The notes below the pieces were generated by a model. The model did not search any database and had not been told where the DNA came from. It worked only from the letters and a program-made list of their open reading frames with translations. A stretch of 24,761 nt of DNA from positions 1 to 24,761 of IMG/VR virus record IMGVR_UViG_3300008217_000084; one strand, written 5' to 3'. Made by a program: the position numbers and the translations under genes. The stretch's first letter is position 1, and each line of letters starts with the position of its first letter. This document shows, one piece after another, positions 3,584 to 19,553 of this stretch. This DNA comes from a virus.

Positions 3584-3904
3584 TTACACACTAAAACTCT
3601 CTCCGCAACCACATTGACTGGTTGCAAGAGGATTTATAATTTTTAGAAAGCTTCCTCCAAGTTCCTCGACATAATCTATTTCACTTCCTAAGATATGTAA
3701 TTCAGCTACTGGATCAAGTAGAAGGATATCTTCTACAGGTTGTGACCACTGGATGTCTTCTCCGTTTAACTCAGGAGACAATCCCCATACATACTGAAAC
3801 CCAGAACATCCTCCTCCCCTAATACCAAGAGTTACATATCCTCCTTCACATACACTTTTCATGTATGCCTTGGCTCGTTCAGTAAGTGTAACCATAGTTT
3901 CCAT
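3584..3904 (-). CDS. HesB/IscA A-type Fe-S cluster carrier
   Basis: 106 residues. A-type carriers (IscA, SufA, ErpA) hold and transfer Fe-S clusters to apo-proteins in the cytoplasm. The three family cysteines are all there: C33 in GGCSGFQY, and C98 and C100 in QCGCGESF. Length equals that of bacterial members. The gene is the last of the minus-strand operon; its ATG overlaps the small terminase stop (TAATG), which also fixes the start, although a second Met lies three codons in. Phage-borne HesB-like genes are known in aquatic phages as auxiliary metabolic genes. The recipient protein cannot be told from the window. Confidence 0.85.
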   Translation of the reverse strand: METMVTLTERAKAYMKSVCEGGYVTLGIRGGGCSGFQYVWGLSPELNGEDIQWSQPVEDILLLDPVAELHILGSEIDYVEELGGSFLKIINPLATSQCGCGESFSV

Positions 3905-4311
3905 TAATCAAATTCACATTTCTTTACAAGCTTAGTTATTTCGTCTTGTCCTAATATCTCCATTGCTTTTATGATGGATGCCTGTAAGTCCTCTCTACTA
4001 ATCTCTTTATCCTTATCACTCTTATGTCCTCTTACTCTGGACAAAAGTTCCAGTGCTTTAATTGCACTGTTTGTATGTCCTTGGGTTTTAGCAAAAGCAT
4101 ATTGATTTTCTATTTCTTCTATGACATCAACACTGGTTTCAAGTTCTCTTGCTAAGTCTTCTATCCGTTCCTGAATGACAGCATCCTGCAGAAGTCTGTA
4201 TCCTTGATTATAAGCAGACCTTTCAGCATATCCTGCAGCCTTTGCAGCATCTGTTGCATTCCTGTGCATGACATATGCCTGTGCAAACTTCTCTTGCTTT
4301 TCGTTAAGCAC
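3904..4311 (-). CDS. Phage terminase small subunit
   Basis: 135 residues. The N-terminal third (LNEKQEKFAQAYVMHRNATDAAKAAGY, then a SAYNQGYRLL helix) is the helix-turn-helix DNA-recognition module of Terminase_2-type small subunits. These bind the packaging start site and recruit the large subunit. The central region is predicted helical and suits oligomerisation. The start is GTG at 4311, inside the end of the cupin gene (8-base overlap); AGGA lies almost adjacent to it, so initiation is probably coupled rather than independent. No large terminase gene is in the window, so the two subunits are not side by side. Confidence 0.8.
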   Translation of the reverse strand: MLNEKQEKFAQAYVMHRNATDAAKAAGYAERSAYNQGYRLLQDAVIQERIEDLARELETSVDVIEEIENQYAFAKTQGHTNSAIKALELLSRVRGHKSDKDKEISREDLQASIIKAMEILGQDEITKLVKKCEFD

Positions 4312-4645
4312 TTCCTACATTCTCCCTTTCTATATCTCCGTGATCAAACTCTGCCCAGTAAAGTTCAAAGGCTACTGTATCTCTTACAGCTTCAAACTGG
4401 TGATACTCTCCGGGCTTAACCTGAGTAAACTGCCCTTCTTTAAGAATGGTTATATCCATTAGATCATAATCATTTTTCCATACCTTAATAATAAGCTCTC
4501 CTTTTTCTACAAAGAAACCATTCCATTTATATTTGTGTCTGTGTTTGCTGCATTTTCCTCCTTCATTTACTTCAATTCTGTGAAATTCCAGCACACCATT
4601 AGCATGGATAAGTTGAGTGTTACCCCATACCTTACCAGCCATCAT
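4304..4645 (-). CDS. Small single-domain cupin protein
   Basis: 113 residues from the ATG at 4645. A GGAGG site sits nine bases upstream of this ATG, whereas it abuts an alternative ATG at 4654, so the later start is preferred. The sequence shows a cupin beta-barrel pattern: a first motif with HRHKYKWNGFFVEKGEL (metal-binding His residues and Gly-Glu) and a second motif with PGEYHQFEA. Cupins range from sugar isomerases to binding proteins, and the reaction cannot be told from one short domain. Its neighbourhood has two glycosyltransferase-type genes upstream in the same operon, which makes a sugar-related role plausible but unproven. Confidence 0.65.
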   Translation of the reverse strand: MMAGKVWGNTQLIHANGVLEFHRIEVNEGGKCSKHRHKYKWNGFFVEKGELIIKVWKNDYDLMDITILKEGQFTQVKPGEYHQFEAVRDTVAFELYWAEFDHGDIERENVGSA

Positions 4646-4669
4646 ACCACACATCCTCCACAGATTATA

Positions 4670-4891
4670 TTAATAAGACCCACCATTACTATAACCATAG
4701 CCGACATCCACATAGCTATAGCCATTCTTTCCCTGTATTTCTTTTTCAAGTTCTTTTAATCTCCTTTCGATTTTGTGTTTCTCGTATCTGTCAAAGAGGG
4801 AAGACGCTGCAGAAGCTCCCATCGTTAAACCAGATGTAATTGTACACCCATTTAAACATAGGATGCAGATCAGAGAGAGAAAGATTCTCAT
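4670..4891 (-). CDS. Small lipoprotein, possibly outer-membrane spanin-like
   Basis: 73 residues. MRIFLSLICILCLNGC is a lipoprotein signal peptide with lipobox L-N-G-C (modified Cys at 16). The mature part is about 58 residues with a charged helix (YEKHKIERRLKELEKEIQ) and a Tyr/Gly-rich tail (residues about 58-73). Its start overlaps the holin stop as ATGA. Small lipoproteins following a holin are often outer-membrane spanin subunits that fuse or disrupt the outer membrane during lysis, but there is no separate inner-membrane spanin here, and the short charged helix is not diagnostic. A Gram-negative host is implied. Confidence 0.6.
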   Translation of the reverse strand: MRIFLSLICILCLNGCTITSGLTMGASAASSLFDRYEKHKIERRLKELEKEIQGKNGYSYVDVGYGYSNGGSY

Positions 4892-5292
4892 CTCTTCATA
4901 TTATTTCTATGAACACCCCTCCATTTTTCTGCAGTTCTCATTCCACCTAGACCAAGAAGTGCTAATACTAAACCAGTTAGTTCCTGTGTCTGAAGAATGG
5001 GAAGAGTGACCAGAGGATACCATATGATTAAACCCCACGATATAATGGGAGCAAATATAAATTGCCATCCTAAAGCAAAGGCACATATCCACATGATTGC
5101 TGGTCTACTACCGCTTACAAAAATTGAGGGATGCTTTGCCTGTTCAATATTAGCTTGAGCCTGAAGTGCGTCTAAGTGAAGTACCTGTGTTTTAAACTCA
5201 GCCTCAAGCTTAGTTTTTAAATCCTTGTCTTCAACAAATTTATCTAAGACCTTTCCTGCAACTCCGATTACACTTTCAGCAATTCCAAACAT
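4888..5292 (-). CDS. Three-TM phage holin (GTA_holin_3TM-like)
   Basis: 134 residues. An N-terminal amphipathic helix-rich region (residues 1-55) precedes three closely spaced membrane segments at about 66-82, 83-100 and 105-118. The junction HPSIFVSGSRPAIMWICAFALG matches the conserved pattern of the 3-TM holins first named from gene transfer agents. Holins open the inner membrane at a timed moment so that endolysin can act. AGGAGG lies about five bases before the ATG. It lies between the glycosyltransferase fusion gene (9-nt gap) and the lipoprotein (ATGA overlap), far from the M15 endolysin on the other strand. Confidence 0.8.
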   Translation of the reverse strand: MFGIAESVIGVAGKVLDKFVEDKDLKTKLEAEFKTQVLHLDALQAQANIEQAKHPSIFVSGSRPAIMWICAFALGWQFIFAPIISWGLIIWYPLVTLPILQTQELTGLVLALLGLGGMRTAEKWRGVHRNNMKR

Positions 5293-5301
5293 TAAATCCT
5301 C

Positions 5302-7596
5302 CTATATCTCTAACACTTCTCTGTAATGTTTTAAGTTTTTAGTCGTTGAGTTTTCCCATATAGCTGCGACAAGAGTATCTCTTCCGTGAAAATTTAAATT
5401 CATATCTACATCTTCTCTATCAAATAATTTCTCACAGTCTTGAGCCATAGCCAAGAGTTCTCCTGTAGTCCAGAAGGGACGGTTCTCTCCGTTTACTTTA
5501 ATACCTACCTGAATATATTTTGGTTTTTCATTTTCAATTATCTTCTTCTCTTCTGCACTTGGTTCAGGCATGGAGCAGTCATATCCAAAAAGATGGAAAG
5601 TTCTGAAGCCTAGTGTATGCATAATACCTATACTCCGCATAGCCGCACAGGTTCCACCAACGATCATTGTAGCTCCTGCCTCTATGCCTAGCTCCTCTTT
5701 TACAGTGATAGCCTTCTGTTGTTCCTCTGCCTTTGTGTCTCTCAGTGCCTCTGAAAAAGCATGCCATCCAATAATATTATCTGTTTTAGATTTAATAAGA
5801 TTGGTTACTGAGGGATCAGTCATGGATGCGTTAAGGAATAAAGTATCTTTATCCACAGTCTTAAATAAATCTTTTCTTACTACACCATGAGTACTTATCC
5901 CATCAACTGGACGGGGATCAAGAATTACACAAGCCCAAGGTTTTATTCCTTCTTCTAAGAGTTTAGGATAGGAATGTTTTACACAGACAACCTTACACCT
6001 GTCTTCACCCTCATGCCTGATAAAACCCTTTAATGATTCCCAGTCAACCCTTCCTGCAGACACAAGGATTGCAACCTCATTATTTGGTTTAGCTCTTTGA
6101 ATCCACTTATTAATTATTTTTGTATTGGCCTTTACATTAGTTTCAATGTATTCTTTTGGAACACAATCCTTTGGGTGGACTACAATAGGAACTGACTGAA
6201 TATCTATGGGGATATCCGGCAAATCCTTATCTGTTAAAACAATTGCTAAATGAGTCCTTCCTCCCCCTTCTACCTGATCCTTAGAAGGGAGAATGGTAGA
6301 GCGTTTTTGTTTCTGGACAATCTTATTTACACCATAAAATTCTTTTGAAGGACCGCTCCCATCTTCTTCCTTTAGGATGTAATCGTCAAGAACAATAACA
6401 GGAGATTTATTAAGCATTTTAAAATCATGATTAACAGTATCTTCTGAATGTCCTCCATCTATAAAAGAAAAGTCTGCTTTAGATTTCTTTAAAGTTTTCT
6501 TTGTATCTCCTTTATGTAGTTTAAATTTAAATATTTTTCCCTGCTCTTTAATCTTATCTGCAAATTCCTGCAGTCTTCCAGTAACTGCTTCAATAGAATT
6601 ATGAGCTTTTGAATTTAATTCTAGTTTATCTGATTCTGTTGTTGCTTCTTCAAAAAGATCGTAGCCTGTATACGTTACCTTATCTGTATGTTGGAAGGCA
6701 GCTAAAGCCATTTGAATAGCCCTACCACCATTCCATGTTCCTGTCTCAATAATAGATTTAGGTTTATAAAAGAGAACTAACTGCATTAATTGTTTGTATC
6801 TTTCTGGTCCATTAATATCAGGAGAAACACCTCCTCCGGGTTTCTTTCTTGATCCTTTATTATGGATCATGTATTCACCTAAAGGAAATTTCTCAAAGGC
6901 TTGTACACCAGAATGAAGACTCTTAATTTCATCCAGATGTCCTGTCCAGTCATGGGCTTTTAATCCATGAGCTATATAAATTTTTAATAATCTTTCAAAG
7001 ACAAACCCATCATGCCATTCCCTGTAATTTAAAACCTCACCAGAAATATAGGCTCCTCTTAAGTCTCCTAGTAAATCTACTGGTGCTTGGTGATTAAGAT
7101 TAAATCCTAAAAAAGATGTCTCGCTATATTCATAGTGCTTCCTTCCCAGATAAACTAGGGAAGCATTTTCTGGGAGACAGGTACTAAGGGTTACATGATT
7201 TAAACGCTTTGTCGTTATGGTATCTGCATCCAGCCAGATAAGCCATCCCGGTTCTTTACTGTAAGAACATAAATCAAAAGCAAATTCTGTTAGTGCAAAA
7301 ACTTTATGACAGAATTTTAAACAGTCTAACTTGTAAGTGTAGGGAGCTTTCCCACCCAGAGTACCATCATACTTTGCATACTCTTTCTTAAAGTCTACCA
7401 TGTCCTGTACTTTATTTAAATTACGATAAGAAATTTGTGGATTAATAAACGGATCAGTCATTTCAAAGTCATGATAAAATGCTGTCAAATAAATATTTGG
7501 TCCCCAATACTTGGCGGCAGTACGCACCATCTCTTTTCCATATGTTTTCCAACCATCTTCAGAAAAAGATGTAACTATATTAATTCTTTTTTCCAT
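5302..7596 (-). CDS. Three-domain fusion: glycosyltransferase, SAM methyltransferase and MptE-like domain
   Basis: 764 residues, no obvious signal peptide. Residues 1-250 look like a GT-A glycosyltransferase: WLIWLDADT gives a DxD motif at D123/D125 for metal and nucleotide-sugar binding. Residues about 270-455 look like a class I SAM methyltransferase of the Methyltransf_24 type (IIETGTWNGGRA at 282-293, FSFIDGGHSEDT, IVLDDY). Residues about 480-764 resemble the MptE-like/DUF115 domain of flagellin-modifying Maf proteins (VAILVSAG, WACVILDPRP, FLNASMTDPSV, GGTCAAMRS, HLFGYDCSMPE). The start overlaps the upstream glycosyltransferase gene by 22 nt. A role in modifying virion or host surface sugars is inferred; the acceptor is unknown. 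Confidence 0.7.
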   Translation of the reverse strand: MEKRINIVTSFSEDGWKTYGKEMVRTAAKYWGPNIYLTAFYHDFEMTDPFINPQISYRNLNKVQDMVDFKKEYAKYDGTLGGKAPYTYKLDCLKFCHKVFALTEFAFDLCSYSKEPGWLIWLDADTITTKRLNHVTLSTCLPENASLVYLGRKHYEYSETSFLGFNLNHQAPVDLLGDLRGAYISGEVLNYREWHDGFVFERLLKIYIAHGLKAHDWTGHLDEIKSLHSGVQAFEKFPLGEYMIHNKGSRKKPGGGVSPDINGPERYKQLMQLVLFYKPKSIIETGTWNGGRAIQMALAAFQHTDKVTYTGYDLFEEATTESDKLELNSKAHNSIEAVTGRLQEFADKIKEQGKIFKFKLHKGDTKKTLKKSKADFSFIDGGHSEDTVNHDFKMLNKSPVIVLDDYILKEEDGSGPSKEFYGVNKIVQKQKRSTILPSKDQVEGGGRTHLAIVLTDKDLPDIPIDIQSVPIVVHPKDCVPKEYIETNVKANTKIINKWIQRAKPNNEVAILVSAGRVDWESLKGFIRHEGEDRCKVVCVKHSYPKLLEEGIKPWACVILDPRPVDGISTHGVVRKDLFKTVDKDTLFLNASMTDPSVTNLIKSKTDNIIGWHAFSEALRDTKAEEQQKAITVKEELGIEAGATMIVGGTCAAMRSIGIMHTLGFRTFHLFGYDCSMPEPSAEEKKIIENEKPKYIQVGIKVNGENRPFWTTGELLAMAQDCEKLFDREDVDMNLNFHGRDTLVAAIWENSTTKNLKHYREVLEI

Positions 7597-8417
7597 GCTA
7601 TATTCTTTTCCTTTCCTAAAGATTCTTCAATAGTTATAATTGAGTGGGTGTTGTCCCACTCCAACGCATACTTTGCGTCACCAATTGTTTTGGCTTTCCA
7701 GTTTTTAAACCAAGGACCACCAGTGGTGAAGTGAACATTTTTAGCTACGAGGTCAGGGGATGAGTGTCCATCCAGCCAGTTCCATTCTTCTGGAAGAGAA
7801 CCTATATCATGGTCTGAAATCCATTTAAAATTATGGAGATACCATCCTGTCTGGAGATTAACATCATCTATAGAAAAATATTTATGTGCTTCATGACCAC
7901 AGTTCCACAGTACAAAACTAGACCAGTTTTTTCTAGAGTATTGTGTTTGTGCTTTATTATCCATCTTTAAATGCTCTGTGGGGGAATGGTTGTGTTGCAC
8001 ACACCAGATAGCCTTGTCTTCTCTTAATGGATAATCAAATACTTCCATAATGTCCGACCTTACCATCATGTCACAATCCATGAATAGAGCATACCCTTGA
8101 TGCCTATTTAAAAAGGGAACTAAGAAACGAGTAAAACTAAATTCAGTTGAAAAAGGTTTTTTATCTACTGTATCTACAGATATCTCCTCTTCACTTTCTG
8201 AATGAGCCATGCTCTGGGATATATTGGGAATAATATTAATGGTTTCTCTTCTATAGAAACCTATTCGCCGCATCTCTTCCTGAAAGATAGGAATAATATT
8301 CACTGGTTTAGAAGAAAAATCCAGTATGGATTCAACAAGAACTTTATATGCTTCCCCATCTCTGGGATCGTATCCAATATAAATTGTTGGTAAACTATGC
8401 ATCTGTCTTTGTCTCAT
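7575..8417 (-). CDS. Glycosyltransferase-like protein with DxD motif
   Basis: 280 residues. After a Rossmann-like start (TIYIGYDPRDGEAYKVLVES) comes ALFMDCDMMV with D114/D116 as the DxD metal site, then SFVLWNC and the late HFTTGGPWF block, an order typical of GT-A glycosyltransferases near GT8. It would transfer a sugar from a nucleotide donor in the cytoplasm. The ATG at 8417 has AGGA seven bases upstream; an internal ATG at 8402 lies nearer the upstream stop codon but has no ribosome site. It overlaps both neighbours (23 and 22 nt), so it is co-translated with the fusion glycosyltransferase and probably works in the same modification. Confidence 0.7.
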   Translation of the reverse strand: MRQRQMHSLPTIYIGYDPRDGEAYKVLVESILDFSSKPVNIIPIFQEEMRRIGFYRRETINIIPNISQSMAHSESEEEISVDTVDKKPFSTEFSFTRFLVPFLNRHQGYALFMDCDMMVRSDIMEVFDYPLREDKAIWCVQHNHSPTEHLKMDNKAQTQYSRKNWSSFVLWNCGHEAHKYFSIDDVNLQTGWYLHNFKWISDHDIGSLPEEWNWLDGHSSPDLVAKNVHFTTGGPWFKNWKAKTIGDAKYALEWDNTHSIITIEESLGKEKNIAWKKELI

Positions 8418-8841
8418 ATAAAGTTCCTACAGGTTCTATATTTATTTTATATTTTTTAAATATCTTTTTCCATCCTGTTCTTGTACTAAAGAATTCAATA
8501 CCATTACATTCATTTTCTATGGTATATCGAACTAGAGATTTCAACATGGGTTCTTCCCACCTAGACATCTCATTATTTTTTGCTGACATATAACCCCATT
8601 GACATATACGTTTTGTAGGATACTCTATAATTTGAGTACAGTAAGCAGCAACAATATTATTGGCAGAGTCCTCCCAGCCTATCCACACTAGTAGATATCT
8701 TTCTTTAATCTTTTCTTTTAAAGAAGCTAGTGTTTCTCTCCCCATACCTTCTTTCTCTATAATTTTCTCAAACAATGGAGATATTTGGGACCAAAATACA
8801 TCTATGACCTGTGCTTCTACTGGTGTAAATTTAAAAGCCAT
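8395..8841 (-). CDS. Phage protein, possible GNAT fold (T7 gp13-like pattern)
   Basis: 148 residues. The order of elements (a helix with SLKEKIKERYLLVWIGWED, then NIVAAYCTQIIEYPTKRICQWGYMSA, then ECNGIEFFSTRTGWKKIFKKY) follows the beta-strand and helix pattern of GNAT acyltransferases and of small phage proteins related to T7 internal virion protein gp13. The acetyl-CoA pyrophosphate loop is not clear, so enzymatic activity is doubtful. No strong ribosome site is seen next to the ATG; the preceding bases form a terminator-like hairpin. It is the first gene after the Hsp20 transcription unit and overlaps the glycosyltransferase gene by 23 nt. Confidence 0.5.
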   Translation of the reverse strand: MAFKFTPVEAQVIDVFWSQISPLFEKIIEKEGMGRETLASLKEKIKERYLLVWIGWEDSANNIVAAYCTQIIEYPTKRICQWGYMSAKNNEMSRWEEPMLKSLVRYTIENECNGIEFFSTRTGWKKIFKKYKINIEPVGTLYETKTDA

Positions 8842-8870
8842 TAAAAATAGGAAGGGCTTTATACCCCTCC
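8842..8870 (-). terminator. Intrinsic terminator after hsp20
   Basis: On the minus strand GGAGGGG (8864-8870) pairs with CCCTTCC (8850-8856), seven pairs with one G-U, around a seven-base loop, followed by TATTTTTA. It starts seven bases after the Hsp20 stop codon and ends at the next start codon. It would end or reduce the heat-shock transcript, with some read-through needed for the downstream genes unless they have their own promoter. Confidence 0.6.
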
Positions 8871-8876
8871 ACTCCT

Positions 8877-9317
8877 CTAGTTAATTGTGAATATTTTAGG
8901 TTTCTTCTCCTCTGGTAGTTTATGTTCTAAATATATATGTAACAGACCGTCCTTAAAAGAAACACTCTTTACAGTCATGTAAGGAGAAAGTTTAAAATCT
9001 TTTGTAAAAGAACGACACGCTATACCATTATATAAGTATTGGGTTTCTTTTGTATCTTTTAATTTTTCTCCTTCAGAAGAAATTCTAAGAGTACCCTCTT
9101 CAATTAATTTAACAGAAATATTATCTTTATAATATCCAGCTAATGCAAGAGTTAATATATACATATTAAATTCCCCTGCTTCATTATTTCCACCAGTTGC
9201 TACAATCCTATGAGGGGGAAACACTTTATTTTTTTCTGGAAGAGACTGCATATGCTGCAGATCGTCCATAAACTTTGTTAATCCTATACTGTGATTCAGT
9301 GTGTGAGCAGTAAACAT
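8877..9317 (-). CDS. Small heat-shock protein Hsp20 (IbpA-like)
   Basis: 146 residues from the ATG at 9317, chosen because AAAGGAG precedes it at good spacing; an in-frame TTG extension to 9434 would run through the structured leader. The alpha-crystallin domain is visible: YILTLALAGYYKDNISVKLIE, LRISSEG, then LYNGIACRSFTKDFKL and LLHIYLEH, ending in an IbpA-like KPKIFTI tail that carries the I-x-I motif. Such proteins bind unfolding proteins in the cytoplasm and hand them to other chaperones. Hsp20 genes are known in some marine phages, where a role in virion assembly or host stress is suspected. It has its own promoter and leader, and is followed by a terminator. Confidence 0.85.
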   Translation of the reverse strand: MFTAHTLNHSIGLTKFMDDLQHMQSLPEKNKVFPPHRIVATGGNNEAGEFNMYILTLALAGYYKDNISVKLIEEGTLRISSEGEKLKDTKETQYLYNGIACRSFTKDFKLSPYMTVKSVSFKDGLLHIYLEHKLPEEKKPKIFTIN

Positions 9318-9442
9318 TTTATCTCCTTTCGCAAGATGTTTTGGAAACCCAACAAGGCATTTCCAAGGATAGTCTGTAGCCCGATTTCTTCTCGCTACCC
9401 TAGTTAATAGGAGTAGTCGGGAGGCACAGACCAAGCCTTGAT
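9318..9442 (-). promoter_or_regulatory. Structured 5' leader of hsp20, candidate RNA thermometer
   Basis: About 125 nt lie between the predicted transcription start and the Hsp20 ATG, and most of it can fold. Outer stem: GTCTGT with ACAGAC and TCCCGA-side with TCGGG (9372-9384 against 9417-9431), enclosing an eight-pair hairpin CTAC/CCTA with TAGG/GTAG at 9395-9415 with one bulge. Next, TTGGAAA pairs with TTTCCAA (9341-9366). Last, CATCTT pairs with AAGGAG across a GCGA tetraloop (9323-9338), with one A-A mismatch and one G-U; this covers the whole ribosome-binding site. Several hairpins with a weak, mismatched last one over the site is the layout of ROSE-like thermosensors of small heat-shock genes. 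Thermal behaviour is inferred. Confidence 0.55.
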
Positions 9443-9448
9443 TTATTT

Positions 9449-9477
9449 ATTATCTCATATTTTCTCTCTACTGTCAA
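9449..9477 (-). promoter_or_regulatory. Sigma70-type promoter for hsp20
   Basis: TTGACA (9472-9477), a 17-nt spacer and GATAAT (9449-9454) on the minus strand. Transcription would start near 9442. The -35 box begins 11 nt past the encoded CCA of the tRNA. The match to the host housekeeping consensus is close, so host polymerase should read it; it is not a heat-shock sigma32 promoter by sequence, which leaves temperature control to the leader. Confidence 0.7.
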
Positions 9478-9487
9478 CAAAAAATAT

Positions 9488-9564
9488 TGGTGCTCTTGGA
9501 AGGACTTGAACCCACAACCTACAGATTAGAAGTCTGTCGCTCTATCCAGTTGAGCTACAAGAGC
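9488..9564 (-). tRNA. tRNA-Arg (anticodon UCU)
   Basis: 77 nt including an encoded CCA. The acceptor stem GCTCTTG/CAAGAGC is perfect, the D stem is GCTC/GAGC, the anticodon stem ACAGA/TCTGT holds loop CTTCTAA (anticodon TCT), and the T loop is TTCAAGT. The T stem GTGGG/CCTTC has one T-T mismatch and one G-T pair. It reads AGA, a codon used very often in these AT-rich genes. Its first base is the last base of the ribonucleotide reductase stop codon, so the tRNA must be cut from that mRNA by RNase P. Confidence 0.93.
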
Positions 9565-18651: not shown

Positions 18652-19553
18652 TAGACATGCTCTAGCATAGCTTTAAAGTGATAAGAATTAAGCCATGCTC
18701 CAACTCTTTCTTGTCTCTTTAACAAAGTTCCTGCATCACCTGCCTTGGAAACAGGGAAACGGGGTGAGTTATGGGAAGCATAGGCACTCATTGCAGAGGT
18801 CAAAGCAAAGACAGTCTGGCCTCTGGTTTTTACCTCTTCAGCAAACTGGCGATACAGTCTGTCAGAGAGTGTATGTTTCTTCTTCTTTTGCATTGGAGAT
18901 TTTGTAAGATTTTCCAACAGCTTCCTAACTCTTGGTGCAGAGATAAACGTGTCAGCCCATTTCTGATACTTCTCTACCTGTTGCTTATGGGTCACTAATG
19001 TCTTATCAAAAGCATCTAGGAAACCTTCTGTATTGAAGTTCTTTGTATGCCTTTTCTTTGTAATGTCATATGATCCAGAGATCATTCCATTAGTGCAGAA
19101 GGTATCAATATCCCCACTGTACAACATGACCGAGCCACTTCCATCAAAGGTATTCTTAAGAATATATCTAAGATTAAACTTTGTTTTGTGTCCACTCTTT
19201 GCTGTAATCTCCTGAGAAATATCTGGGAAGGTATACTCTGACCAGCATACCGCACCATCTTTAAGGATTGTATCCTTAATTTTTATTCCTTTTAGAACTG
19301 TGGGATCAAAGTAATTTACCATCTGCTCCTGTAAAGGTAGAAGAATTTCTTTATTCTCTACAACTCTGTAATTTTCGTTGACGACAGACAGATATTTCTT
19401 TGAAAGGTTTTCACGATACTCATCCTTTGAAGTCCATGTCGTAAGCATCTTTTTCTTAGATGCTTCTAGACCACTAAAAAGTCCACGAACAGGTTCTGAA
19501 AATACTGGGAAAAATATATTTCTATCTTTGGTAGATGTTAAATGTTCTAGCAT
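18651..19553 (-). CDS. DUF932 phage/plasmid-related protein
   Basis: 300 residues. The central block (SGSVMLYSGDIDTFCTNGMISGSY followed by KKRHTKN) is the typical core of DUF932 proteins, known from phages and conjugative plasmids near replication and anti-restriction genes. The function of the family is not settled. The C-terminal part is helical and basic (SPMQKKKKHTLSDRLYRQFAEEV). AAGGAAG precedes the ATG. Genes around it are small early proteins on one side and the SleB hydrolase on the other. Confidence 0.75.
   Translation of the reverse strand: MLEHLTSTKDRNIFFPVFSEPVRGLFSGLEASKKKMLTTWTSKDEYRENLSKKYLSVVNENYRVVENKEILLPLQEQMVNYFDPTVLKGIKIKDTILKDGAVCWSEYTFPDISQEITAKSGHKTKFNLRYILKNTFDGSGSVMLYSGDIDTFCTNGMISGSYDITKKRHTKNFNTEGFLDAFDKTLVTHKQQVEKYQKWADTFISAPRVRKLLENLTKSPMQKKKKHTLSDRLYRQFAEEVKTRGQTVFALTSAMSAYASHNSPRFPVSKAGDAGTLLKRQERVGAWLNSYHFKAMLEHV

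Follow-up and report, generated by a model that had tools for sequence, protein, structure and literature searches.

We know of no explanation for why so many marine phages carry hsp20. A 24,761 bp virus record from IMG/VR (the whole of this stretch is called the window hereafter) raises the question of how such a gene is controlled, as its hsp20 lies on the minus strand behind a leader of about 125 nt that a sequence-only reading had likened to the ROSE-type RNA thermometers of bacterial small heat-shock genes. Comparison with the leaders of other phages indicates that positions 9321-9366 probably form a short two-hairpin RNA thermometer of the ROSE type controlling translation of the phage hsp20, a reading to which we assign a probability of about 0.8. 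The evidence for the hairpins, their kinship with ROSE elements, their predicted response to temperature and the other functions that they might serve are considered in turn.

The hsp20 leader and its hairpins

On the minus strand, a ribonucleotide reductase (RNR) gene is followed by tRNA-Arg(UCU), the promoter, the leader and hsp20 (Table 1). The consensus-like sigma70 promoter that had been proposed from the sequence was borne out, with an extended TG in addition to its hexamers. In the whole region, promoter-like sites number 4, compared with 8.2 in shuffles; since this total lies below the shuffles, only the quality of the promoter itself and its recurrence in relatives count in its favor. 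Like promoters, read by eye, stand at the same place in RNR-linked relatives and in two further loci, L013 and L014. The 148 aa gene that follows hsp20 matches no Pfam or PHROG family at E ≤ 0.01. Between hsp20 and the beginning of this next gene, at window 8850-8870 on the minus strand, is a hairpin that resembles a terminator and has a T-rich tail.

Table 1. Coordinates of the promoter, genes and RNA structures, in window positions unless a locus is named
Feature	Position	Strand	Description or evidence
Sigma70-type promoter, TTGACA-17-GATAAT, TG before the -10	9449..9477	-	11/12 consensus matches
hsp20, 146 aa small heat-shock protein	8877..9317	-	PF00011 3.6e-9; phrog_432 1.1e-27; start at 9317
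tRNA-Arg (UCU)	9488..9564	-	Directly upstream of the promoter; a neighbour, outside the element
148 aa gene after hsp20	8395..8841	-	Its homologue directly follows the 5' module in L013, L014 and L245
5' structured module	9364..9440	-	CAAGG/CCUUG, GGUCUGU/ACAGACU, CCCGA/UCGGG, CUAC/GUAG with one-sided CGAGAAGAAA bulge
Copies of the 5' module	L013 3751-3817; L014 2687-2794; L245 11314-11359 (minus strand, core)		
Hairpin 1 (ROSE-type first hairpin)	9341..9366	-	Covariation in 35 aligned phage leaders; bulged-G match in ROSE elements and the ROSE_3 consensus
Hairpin 2 (proposed thermosensing hairpin)	9321..9337	-	AUCUU(G9332)C-GAAA-GGAGAU; pairs with the Shine-Dalgarno sequence; model R1 match
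Shine-Dalgarno sequence AAGGAG	9323..9328	-	Sequence

The 126 nt leader folds at -39.8 kcal/mol, compared with -29.95 ± 3.94 kcal/mol in shuffles (z -2.5; 3 of 200 as good), and its three structures, a long stem followed by two hairpins, come in the order in which they had been described. Fold energy alone is modest evidence, so the case rests on comparison. The middle structure, hairpin 1, lies where it had been placed, but has ten pairs instead of seven: seven outer pairs (UUGGAAA/UUUCCAA), U9359-G9348 and, past a bulged G9358, CC against GG under a UUGUU loop. For the last structure, hairpin 2, the proposed pairing with the Shine-Dalgarno (SD) sequence and the presence of a G-U pair, here U9333-G9325, both stood. 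The register originally given, CAUCUU/AAGGAG at 9323-9338 with a GCGA loop and an A-A mismatch, was rejected in favor of the conserved register 9337-9321, which has a bulged G9332, a GAAA loop and no A-A mismatch. The isolated hairpin in this register has an energy at 37 °C of -1.6 kcal/mol (-2.3 without the inner C-G) vs -0.9 for the earlier register, and slides of 1-3 columns lose the comparative support.

Recurrence and conservation among phage hsp20 genes

Scanning with the window's Hsp20 returned seven loci, four of them with an identical leader and three distant, at 33-35% protein identity, which also show the short two-hairpin sequence. The neighbouring RNR protein was used for a further scan, from which the best 80 loci were taken, and hsp20 relatives occur in 54 of the 88 loci collected up to that point. 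Read side by side, most leaders have a hairpin with UGC[C/U]...GGG in a varying stem right after the promoter, followed by CU[U/C]GC and the SD. Among loci not chosen by pattern, 80 of 86 phage hsp20 genes have the full element before them. Four contigs occur twice in this set (L002/L010, L003/L011, L004/L012 and L005/L009), and the count over distinct contigs and records is 76 of 82; there are 53 distinct full leaders, many of them closely related. Conserved pairing over the ribosome site in related phages, whose absence the sequence-only reading had named as the finding that would count against it, is thus present, and its expectation that a phage-encoded thermosensor on a chaperone gene would be unusual gives way to an element widespread among hsp20-carrying phages. 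Of the remaining six genes, L027 and L028 have the SD hairpin only, L022, L025 and L170 have neither hairpin, and the leader of L166, cut in the script count, does match the covariance model R1 described below. The hsp20 leaders of L022 and L025 are different: the SD is preceded by a long AGTACGG..CCGTACT stem with CCTTGTCTAATAATGA, which may be another way of hiding it.

The element was also sought in 24 named phage records (3 of them without annotation), which had been chosen by hand out of 197 and 322 matching records so as to be diverse. Reading of the leaders located it in cyanophages S-T4, S-WAM1, P-SSM4, S-PM2, S-SSM7, S-ShM2, S-CAM1, S-CAM3, S-CAM7, S-RIM12, S-CREM1, S-SZBM1, S-SKS1, DSL-LC03 and S-CRM01. 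It is present as well in pelagiphages Mosig and HTVC103P, Methylophilales phage Melnitz, marine viruses AG-345-E15 and AG-345-E02, Pseudomonas phage PA5oct (287 kb), Sinorhizobium phage Phosso (469 kb) and an unverified 'Salmonella phage S.Kent' contig. The hsp20 leader of Vibrio phage PWH3a-P1 is the only one among the 24 without it.

The tie to hsp20 was equally close in scans blind to the gene. A pattern scan of all IMG/VR contigs returned 57 stretches, of which 56 precede hsp20 and the 57th lies at a contig edge. A scan for the form with a UUCG loop returned at least 120 stretches; among the matches listed, 101 run straight into hsp20, 111 of 120 have hsp20 as the next gene or within 900 nt, 8 of 120 end at a contig edge (most resembling Hsp20 N-termini by eye), and 1 of 120 (L323) enters an ORF of 14 codons upstream of groES and groEL. 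Ten of the 120 listed matches (L259, L260, L273, L282, L295, L298, L304, L337, L338 and L358) are of a bicistronic version, in which the element is followed by an ORF of 61-98 aa and then by Hsp20 within 900 nt; three N-terminal pieces of these ORFs had no Pfam match over the cut-off. The phage contig L323 has genes for ClpX, GroES, GroEL, Hsp20 and ClpS in a row (3843-8111) and carries the element twice: the copy ahead of hsp20 scores 40.6 bits, and the other, which follows clpX and precedes the 14-codon ORF and groESL, scores 25.0 bits.

In general form, hairpin 1 reads stem - Y - bulged G - CY - loop - RG - R - stem and hairpin 2 reads C-U-Y - bulged G - C - loop - G-G-A-G. All 61 parsed leaders (59 distinct) have G at both bulges, and hairpin-2 spans range from 4 to 9 nt, values that describe the set and do not test it, since the parser and the collecting descriptor require these motifs. 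UYGC faces the SD in 61 of 61, and the next base is paired as U-A in 53 of 61; the window and PA5oct carry UUGCG in place of U(U/C)GCU, differing in the last letter. For the analysis of covariation, 35 distinct leaders were aligned with their loops padded with N, since MAFFT alone misaligned the SD. In this alignment, which was laid out by the tested structure itself and so favors it, standard pairs fill 91.5% of cells (76.1 ± 1.0 shuffled), both-sided changes occupy 69 cells (16.7 ± 3.2 shuffled) and the covariation score is 0.445 (0.155 ± 0.013 shuffled), none of the three being reached in 500 shuffles; when the structure is slid by 1 to 3 columns, the score is at most 0.112.

Covariation in aligned leaders, which the sequence-only reading had put forward as a check, is strong for hairpin 1, where all cells are paired in the 35 leaders and each of the four lower pairs takes at least three Watson-Crick forms; hairpin 2 shows mostly invariance. 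Its U-A and C-G pairs are invariant, as the SD side cannot vary, and its Y-G pair divides into 19 leaders with U-G and 16 with C-G. The C-G beside the U-A is once A-U (HTVC103P) and once U-G (Mosig), and no more than 13 and 19 of the 35 leaders form the two outer pairs. Since this variation is small, the support for hairpin 2 consists of invariance over a changing loop length together with a few compensatory changes. By the comparative evidence, the structure is more than chance would give.

R1, built from phage leaders, gave 64 matches at E ≤ 1 in 83 sources (one contig twice), 59 of them at the conserved leader place, where an hsp20 start follows or the contig soon ends. The other five (L062 3623, L067 3639, L024 5432, L029 6781 and L026 4317) were rejected as chance, and since the one at L062 had an E of 5e-4, the E-values of R1 are too hopeful. 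R1 matches 23 of the 24 named phage records, of which 16 have leaders built into the model; the seven outside it (L146, L166, L168, L173, L176, L178 and L180) score 14.2-31.2 bits, and some are close to members. The window, itself one of the 35 sequences of the model, matches at 9321-9363 with 20.7 bits.

ROSE elements, bacterial leaders and the 5' stem

The proposal that the hsp20 leader has the build of a ROSE element is supported, with amendments. The leader belongs to a small heat-shock protein gene, has a bulged G in the anti-SD strand and places a stable 5' hairpin before the SD hairpin; the SD hairpin and the second hairpin recur, and ROSE_3 (RF02523) is the best Rfam family at three relatives scanned singly at a loose threshold, namely L020 (27.1 bits, E 3.1e-4), AG-345-E15 (L148; 21.3 bits, 0.01) and L323 (31.8 bits, 4.4e-4). 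Over 20 records, ROSE_3 falls on the hsp20 leaders of L020 (1.7e-5), L119 (5.8e-5), AG-345-E15 (0.0013) and P-SSM4 (0.28), its other matches there being off-leader or unmapped (that of the window is at 19194-19257), and rhizobial ROSE (RF00435) falls on the leaders of L100 (0.025) and L125 (0.057). No Rfam gathering score was reached for either family in any of the 20 records, nor in 18 and 20 sources in further scans, and nothing in Rfam matches the leader of the window itself. The elements are therefore described here as ROSE-like with the same architecture and not as members of an Rfam family.

The likeness of the phage leaders to ROSE_3 extends, bulge for bulge, over both hairpins. Its consensus opens with GGAU(G)CC..GG-GUCC, a first hairpin with a bulged G, and continues through a linker to a CUYGCU hairpin with a bulged G over AGGAG, with the start codon just after; the family is of the thermoregulator type. 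The matching phage hsp20 leaders differ in scoring 14-32 bits against a cut-off of 43, in being AU-rich and in their varying linkers, and the window, whose leader is unmatched, has UUGCG and a GAAA loop. Scanning 41 genomes of one Rhizobiales order with RF00435 gave two elements over the cut-off (L236 and L237), which precede an Hsp20-like gene (by eye). They open with the bulged-G hairpin of the phage leaders, here carrying the UGCC motif as GCCGGAU(G)CCC...GGGAUCCGGC and CGGAU(G)CC...GGGUCCG respectively, and close with UUGCU over AGGAG, but have further hairpins between the first and the last that are absent from the phage leaders. Published work on Pseudomonas supports the mechanism for leaders of this build. 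There, two-hairpin ibpA leaders, 61-62 nt long, are reported to act as thermometers: hairpin II alone melts, and deletion of G39 in it represses (PMC3669281, available part). In these leaders U(U/C)GCU lies against the SD; the ibpA gene is bacterial and under sigma32 (PMC3669281), whereas the phage promoter looks sigma70-like. A bulged-G ROSE-like motif has also been shown for oppF (PMC11342760, available part).

Bacterial genomes gave no sign that hosts share the phage form, as the first pattern found only 39 stretches in 84,980 bacterial and archaeal genomes, one of them before hsp20 (L208). Bacterial matches to R1, in 7 of 120 and 5 of 121 genomes at E ≤ 0.05, are at about chance level and were rejected; the Hsp20 profile found no Hsp20 directly after those that were read. 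ROSE_3 in 142 genomes of the class of a Nitrosovibrio MAG, which we take to be Gammaproteobacteria in GTDB, gave four matches: L241 before hsp20, L238 with a Clp-ATPase-like ORF (named by eye) at the expected place, and two with neither gene. The bacterial hsp20 leaders of L208 (15.7 bits) and L241 (16.4 bits), from the Nitrosovibrio MAG and another genome of its class, have the two-hairpin build and match R1. Separately, a look-alike two-hairpin element precedes a gene for a 184 aa HslV-like protease (by eye) in two Rhizobiales-type genomes (L202 and L209, with L221, L366 and L367); by pattern it occurs in 2 of 151 family genomes, and R1 scores 16.3 bits at L202 and has no match at L209.

Upstream of hairpin 1, the long multi-part stem described by the sequence-only reading does exist, but it extends over about 9364-9440 instead of 9372-9431, and its assignment to the ROSE element was rejected, other leaders with hairpins 1 and 2 being without it. 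Its outermost pairs overlap hairpin 1 at 9364-9366. A local search of the collected loci with the 77 nt stem found it in L013 (91% over 70 nt), in L014, where an insertion splits it, and in the near-identical relatives of the window; two pattern scans of IMG/VR added one contig, L245, again without hsp20 at that place. In L013 and L014, the stem stands between a like promoter and the homologue of the 148 aa gene, without hsp20 and hairpins 1 and 2; in L015-L018, the promoter and the gene are present and the stem is absent. Since it occurs without hsp20 or hairpins 1 and 2, it is best seen, from these sequence comparisons, as a separate lineage-restricted RNA module, and in the window hsp20 and the ROSE-like element stand between the module and its usual gene.

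The four versions of the module keep the outer stems, with G-U changes and a tip about 40 nt longer in L014; the outermost stem has one C-G to U-A change between the window and L014 (by eye) and is weak or absent in L013 and L245. No Rfam family fits the module. Its CUACUCC is complementary to GGAGUAG at the ribosome site of the L014 gene, and to six letters in L013 (by eye). The module is a candidate cis-regulatory RNA lying between a tRNA-linked promoter and the next gene.

Predicted temperature response, rival functions and significance

Folding at several temperatures, which had likewise been suggested as a check, gave a divided result for the window. With the full leader and 21 nt of coding sequence, the predicted probability (ViennaRNA) that GGAG is open rises from 0.001 at 10 °C to 0.008 at 25, 0.028 at 37 and 0.042 at 42 °C. 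In the leader alone, the C9335-G9323 pair of hairpin 2 is predicted with probabilities of 0.95, 0.85 and 0.69 at 10, 25 and 37 °C and the outer pair of hairpin 1 with 1.0, 0.98 and 0.92, behaving as a thermometer should. Once the 21 nt of coding sequence are included, however, hairpin 2 loses to pairing with it, the same pair reaching only 0.05, 0.15 and 0.27 and rising with heat. Since the coding sequence favors another pairing of the SD, the window's SD is predicted to be hidden in the cold, though hairpin 2 is not clearly what hides it. In a set of 79 distinct hsp20 leaders, which includes some loci chosen by pattern, the median probability of an open SD at 25 °C is 0.0024, vs 0.022 in 400 of the 417 other-ORF leaders of the same loci (Mann-Whitney 2e-6), and the rise from 15 to 37 °C is 18.4-fold vs 6.9-fold (Mann-Whitney 4e-6), p-values that flatter the difference since the sequences are related. 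The comparison says that the modelled hsp20 SD is unusually buried; it does not make the SD hairpin a sensor.

In the proposed mechanism, hairpin 2, with CUY(G)C facing the GGAG of the SD, would keep the ribosome off in the cold. On warming, its helix of U-A, U-G and bulged G would melt first, while hairpin 1 would stay folded as a scaffold or stabiliser of the mRNA, and the Hsp20 then made would shield proteins of phage or host. On the same transcript, the additional 5' stem is read as a separate RNA module. A wider reading, in which diverse tailed phages share an old ROSE-type family that gates chaperones by temperature and the window's lineage has it downstream of an unrelated second cis-regulatory RNA, is tentative and rather doubtful as a whole; it would make the window's a two-input leader, with the signal of the 5' module and temperature read on one phage mRNA.

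Several other functions could be served by such a leader. It might be mainly an operator for Hsp20, with IbpA-like self-repression relieved when unfolded clients titrate Hsp20 away, which we consider unlikely, although such control could join a thermometer. With the residue numbers of E. coli IbpA placed on an alignment of 22 phage Hsp20s, a placement that we presume to hold, the key arginine is found by eye in 20 of 22 (R102 in the window), 18 of 22 have a basic residue where R97 stands (K106) and all 22 have an aromatic residue just before PP, at the Y34 position (F33). At the K98 position, however, no more than 3 of 22 are basic, and the window's Hsp20, which fits the IbpA-type set at the other three places, departs from it there with D107. 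E. coli IbpA binds its own thermometer leader and represses its translation, the binding requires R93, R97, K98 and an aromatic residue at 34, and loss of K98 abolished repression; the key arginine is, in addition, common anyway in alpha- and gammaproteobacterial IbpAs (PMC10474464, available part). Hsp20 feedback could thus be an addition to the thermometer, but these residues do not support it as the principal mechanism. It is less probable still that the hairpins form a constitutive leader, acting as a 5' stabiliser, a shield against RNase or a tuned weak ribosome site without sensing temperature. The place of hairpin 1 right after the promoter in short-leader relatives (by eye) suits a 5' stabiliser, and the predicted loss of the window's hairpin 2 to early-codon pairing agrees with such a role, but the element is tied to hsp20 operons instead of being spread over phage genes, and the bulged G and UYGC against the SD match the anatomy of ROSE.

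It seems very improbable that a single multi-hairpin ROSE element takes in the entire 125 nt leader together with the long stem. Classical ROSE elements do have three to four hairpins (PMC3669281), and the three positions that the stem shares with hairpin 1 would allow mutual influence. Against this, the stem occurs apart from hsp20 and both hairpins in three loci, is confined among the collected loci to L013, L014 and the window's near-identical relatives, and stands before the first hairpin, whereas the extra hairpins of L236 and L237 stand between the first and the last. A ligand-sensing riboswitch is the least credible substitute for a thermometer: a compact conserved hairpin with SD sequestration would fit one, and cmscan reports preQ1-II at L020 (E 0.9), yet at 17.2 bits against a cut-off of 47 and below ROSE_3 in the same scan, and the stem letters of hairpin 1 vary freely, leaving few invariant bases for a pocket.

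Published precedents for phage thermometers as such are rare. The Robo-Therm authors name lambda cIII, SPbeta blyA and a Caudoviricetes sigma70, in each of which a phage-borne leader controls translation initiation; blyA and sigma70 have fourU-type elements, cIII uses alternative mRNA structures, and none is on a chaperone gene (PMC11182007, available part). The available part of that paper makes no claim of a recurrent family of phage thermometers. Among the matches listed in PMC, a scope that leaves subscription papers and preprints outside, no title or abstract start names a phage ROSE element or a phage hsp20 thermometer. The main text of each of two cyanophage small heat-shock protein papers is without the words 'untranslated', 'upstream' and 'thermometer', and PMC11936213 has 'RNA thermometer' in its reference list only. 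The kind of thermometer is known; what appears to be new is the phage family, together with its breadth and its close link to the phage hsp20.

If the thermometer silences hsp20 until the infected cell warms, phage chaperones would be a heat-response programme, testable in cultured cyanophages such as S-PM2, S-ShM2 and P-SSM4, which carry the element, and with a bearing on how infection responds to ocean warming. The few single cases of phage RNA thermometers would become a recurrent family, and its natural variants would be available for studying how ROSE elements are tuned to cool water.

A minor observation concerns gene annotation. In cyanophages S-T4 (L145), S-CAM7 (L172) and S-CAM3 (L180), the annotated hsp20 start is internal to the gene, the element and the SD indicating an in-frame ATG 75 to 87 nt upstream.
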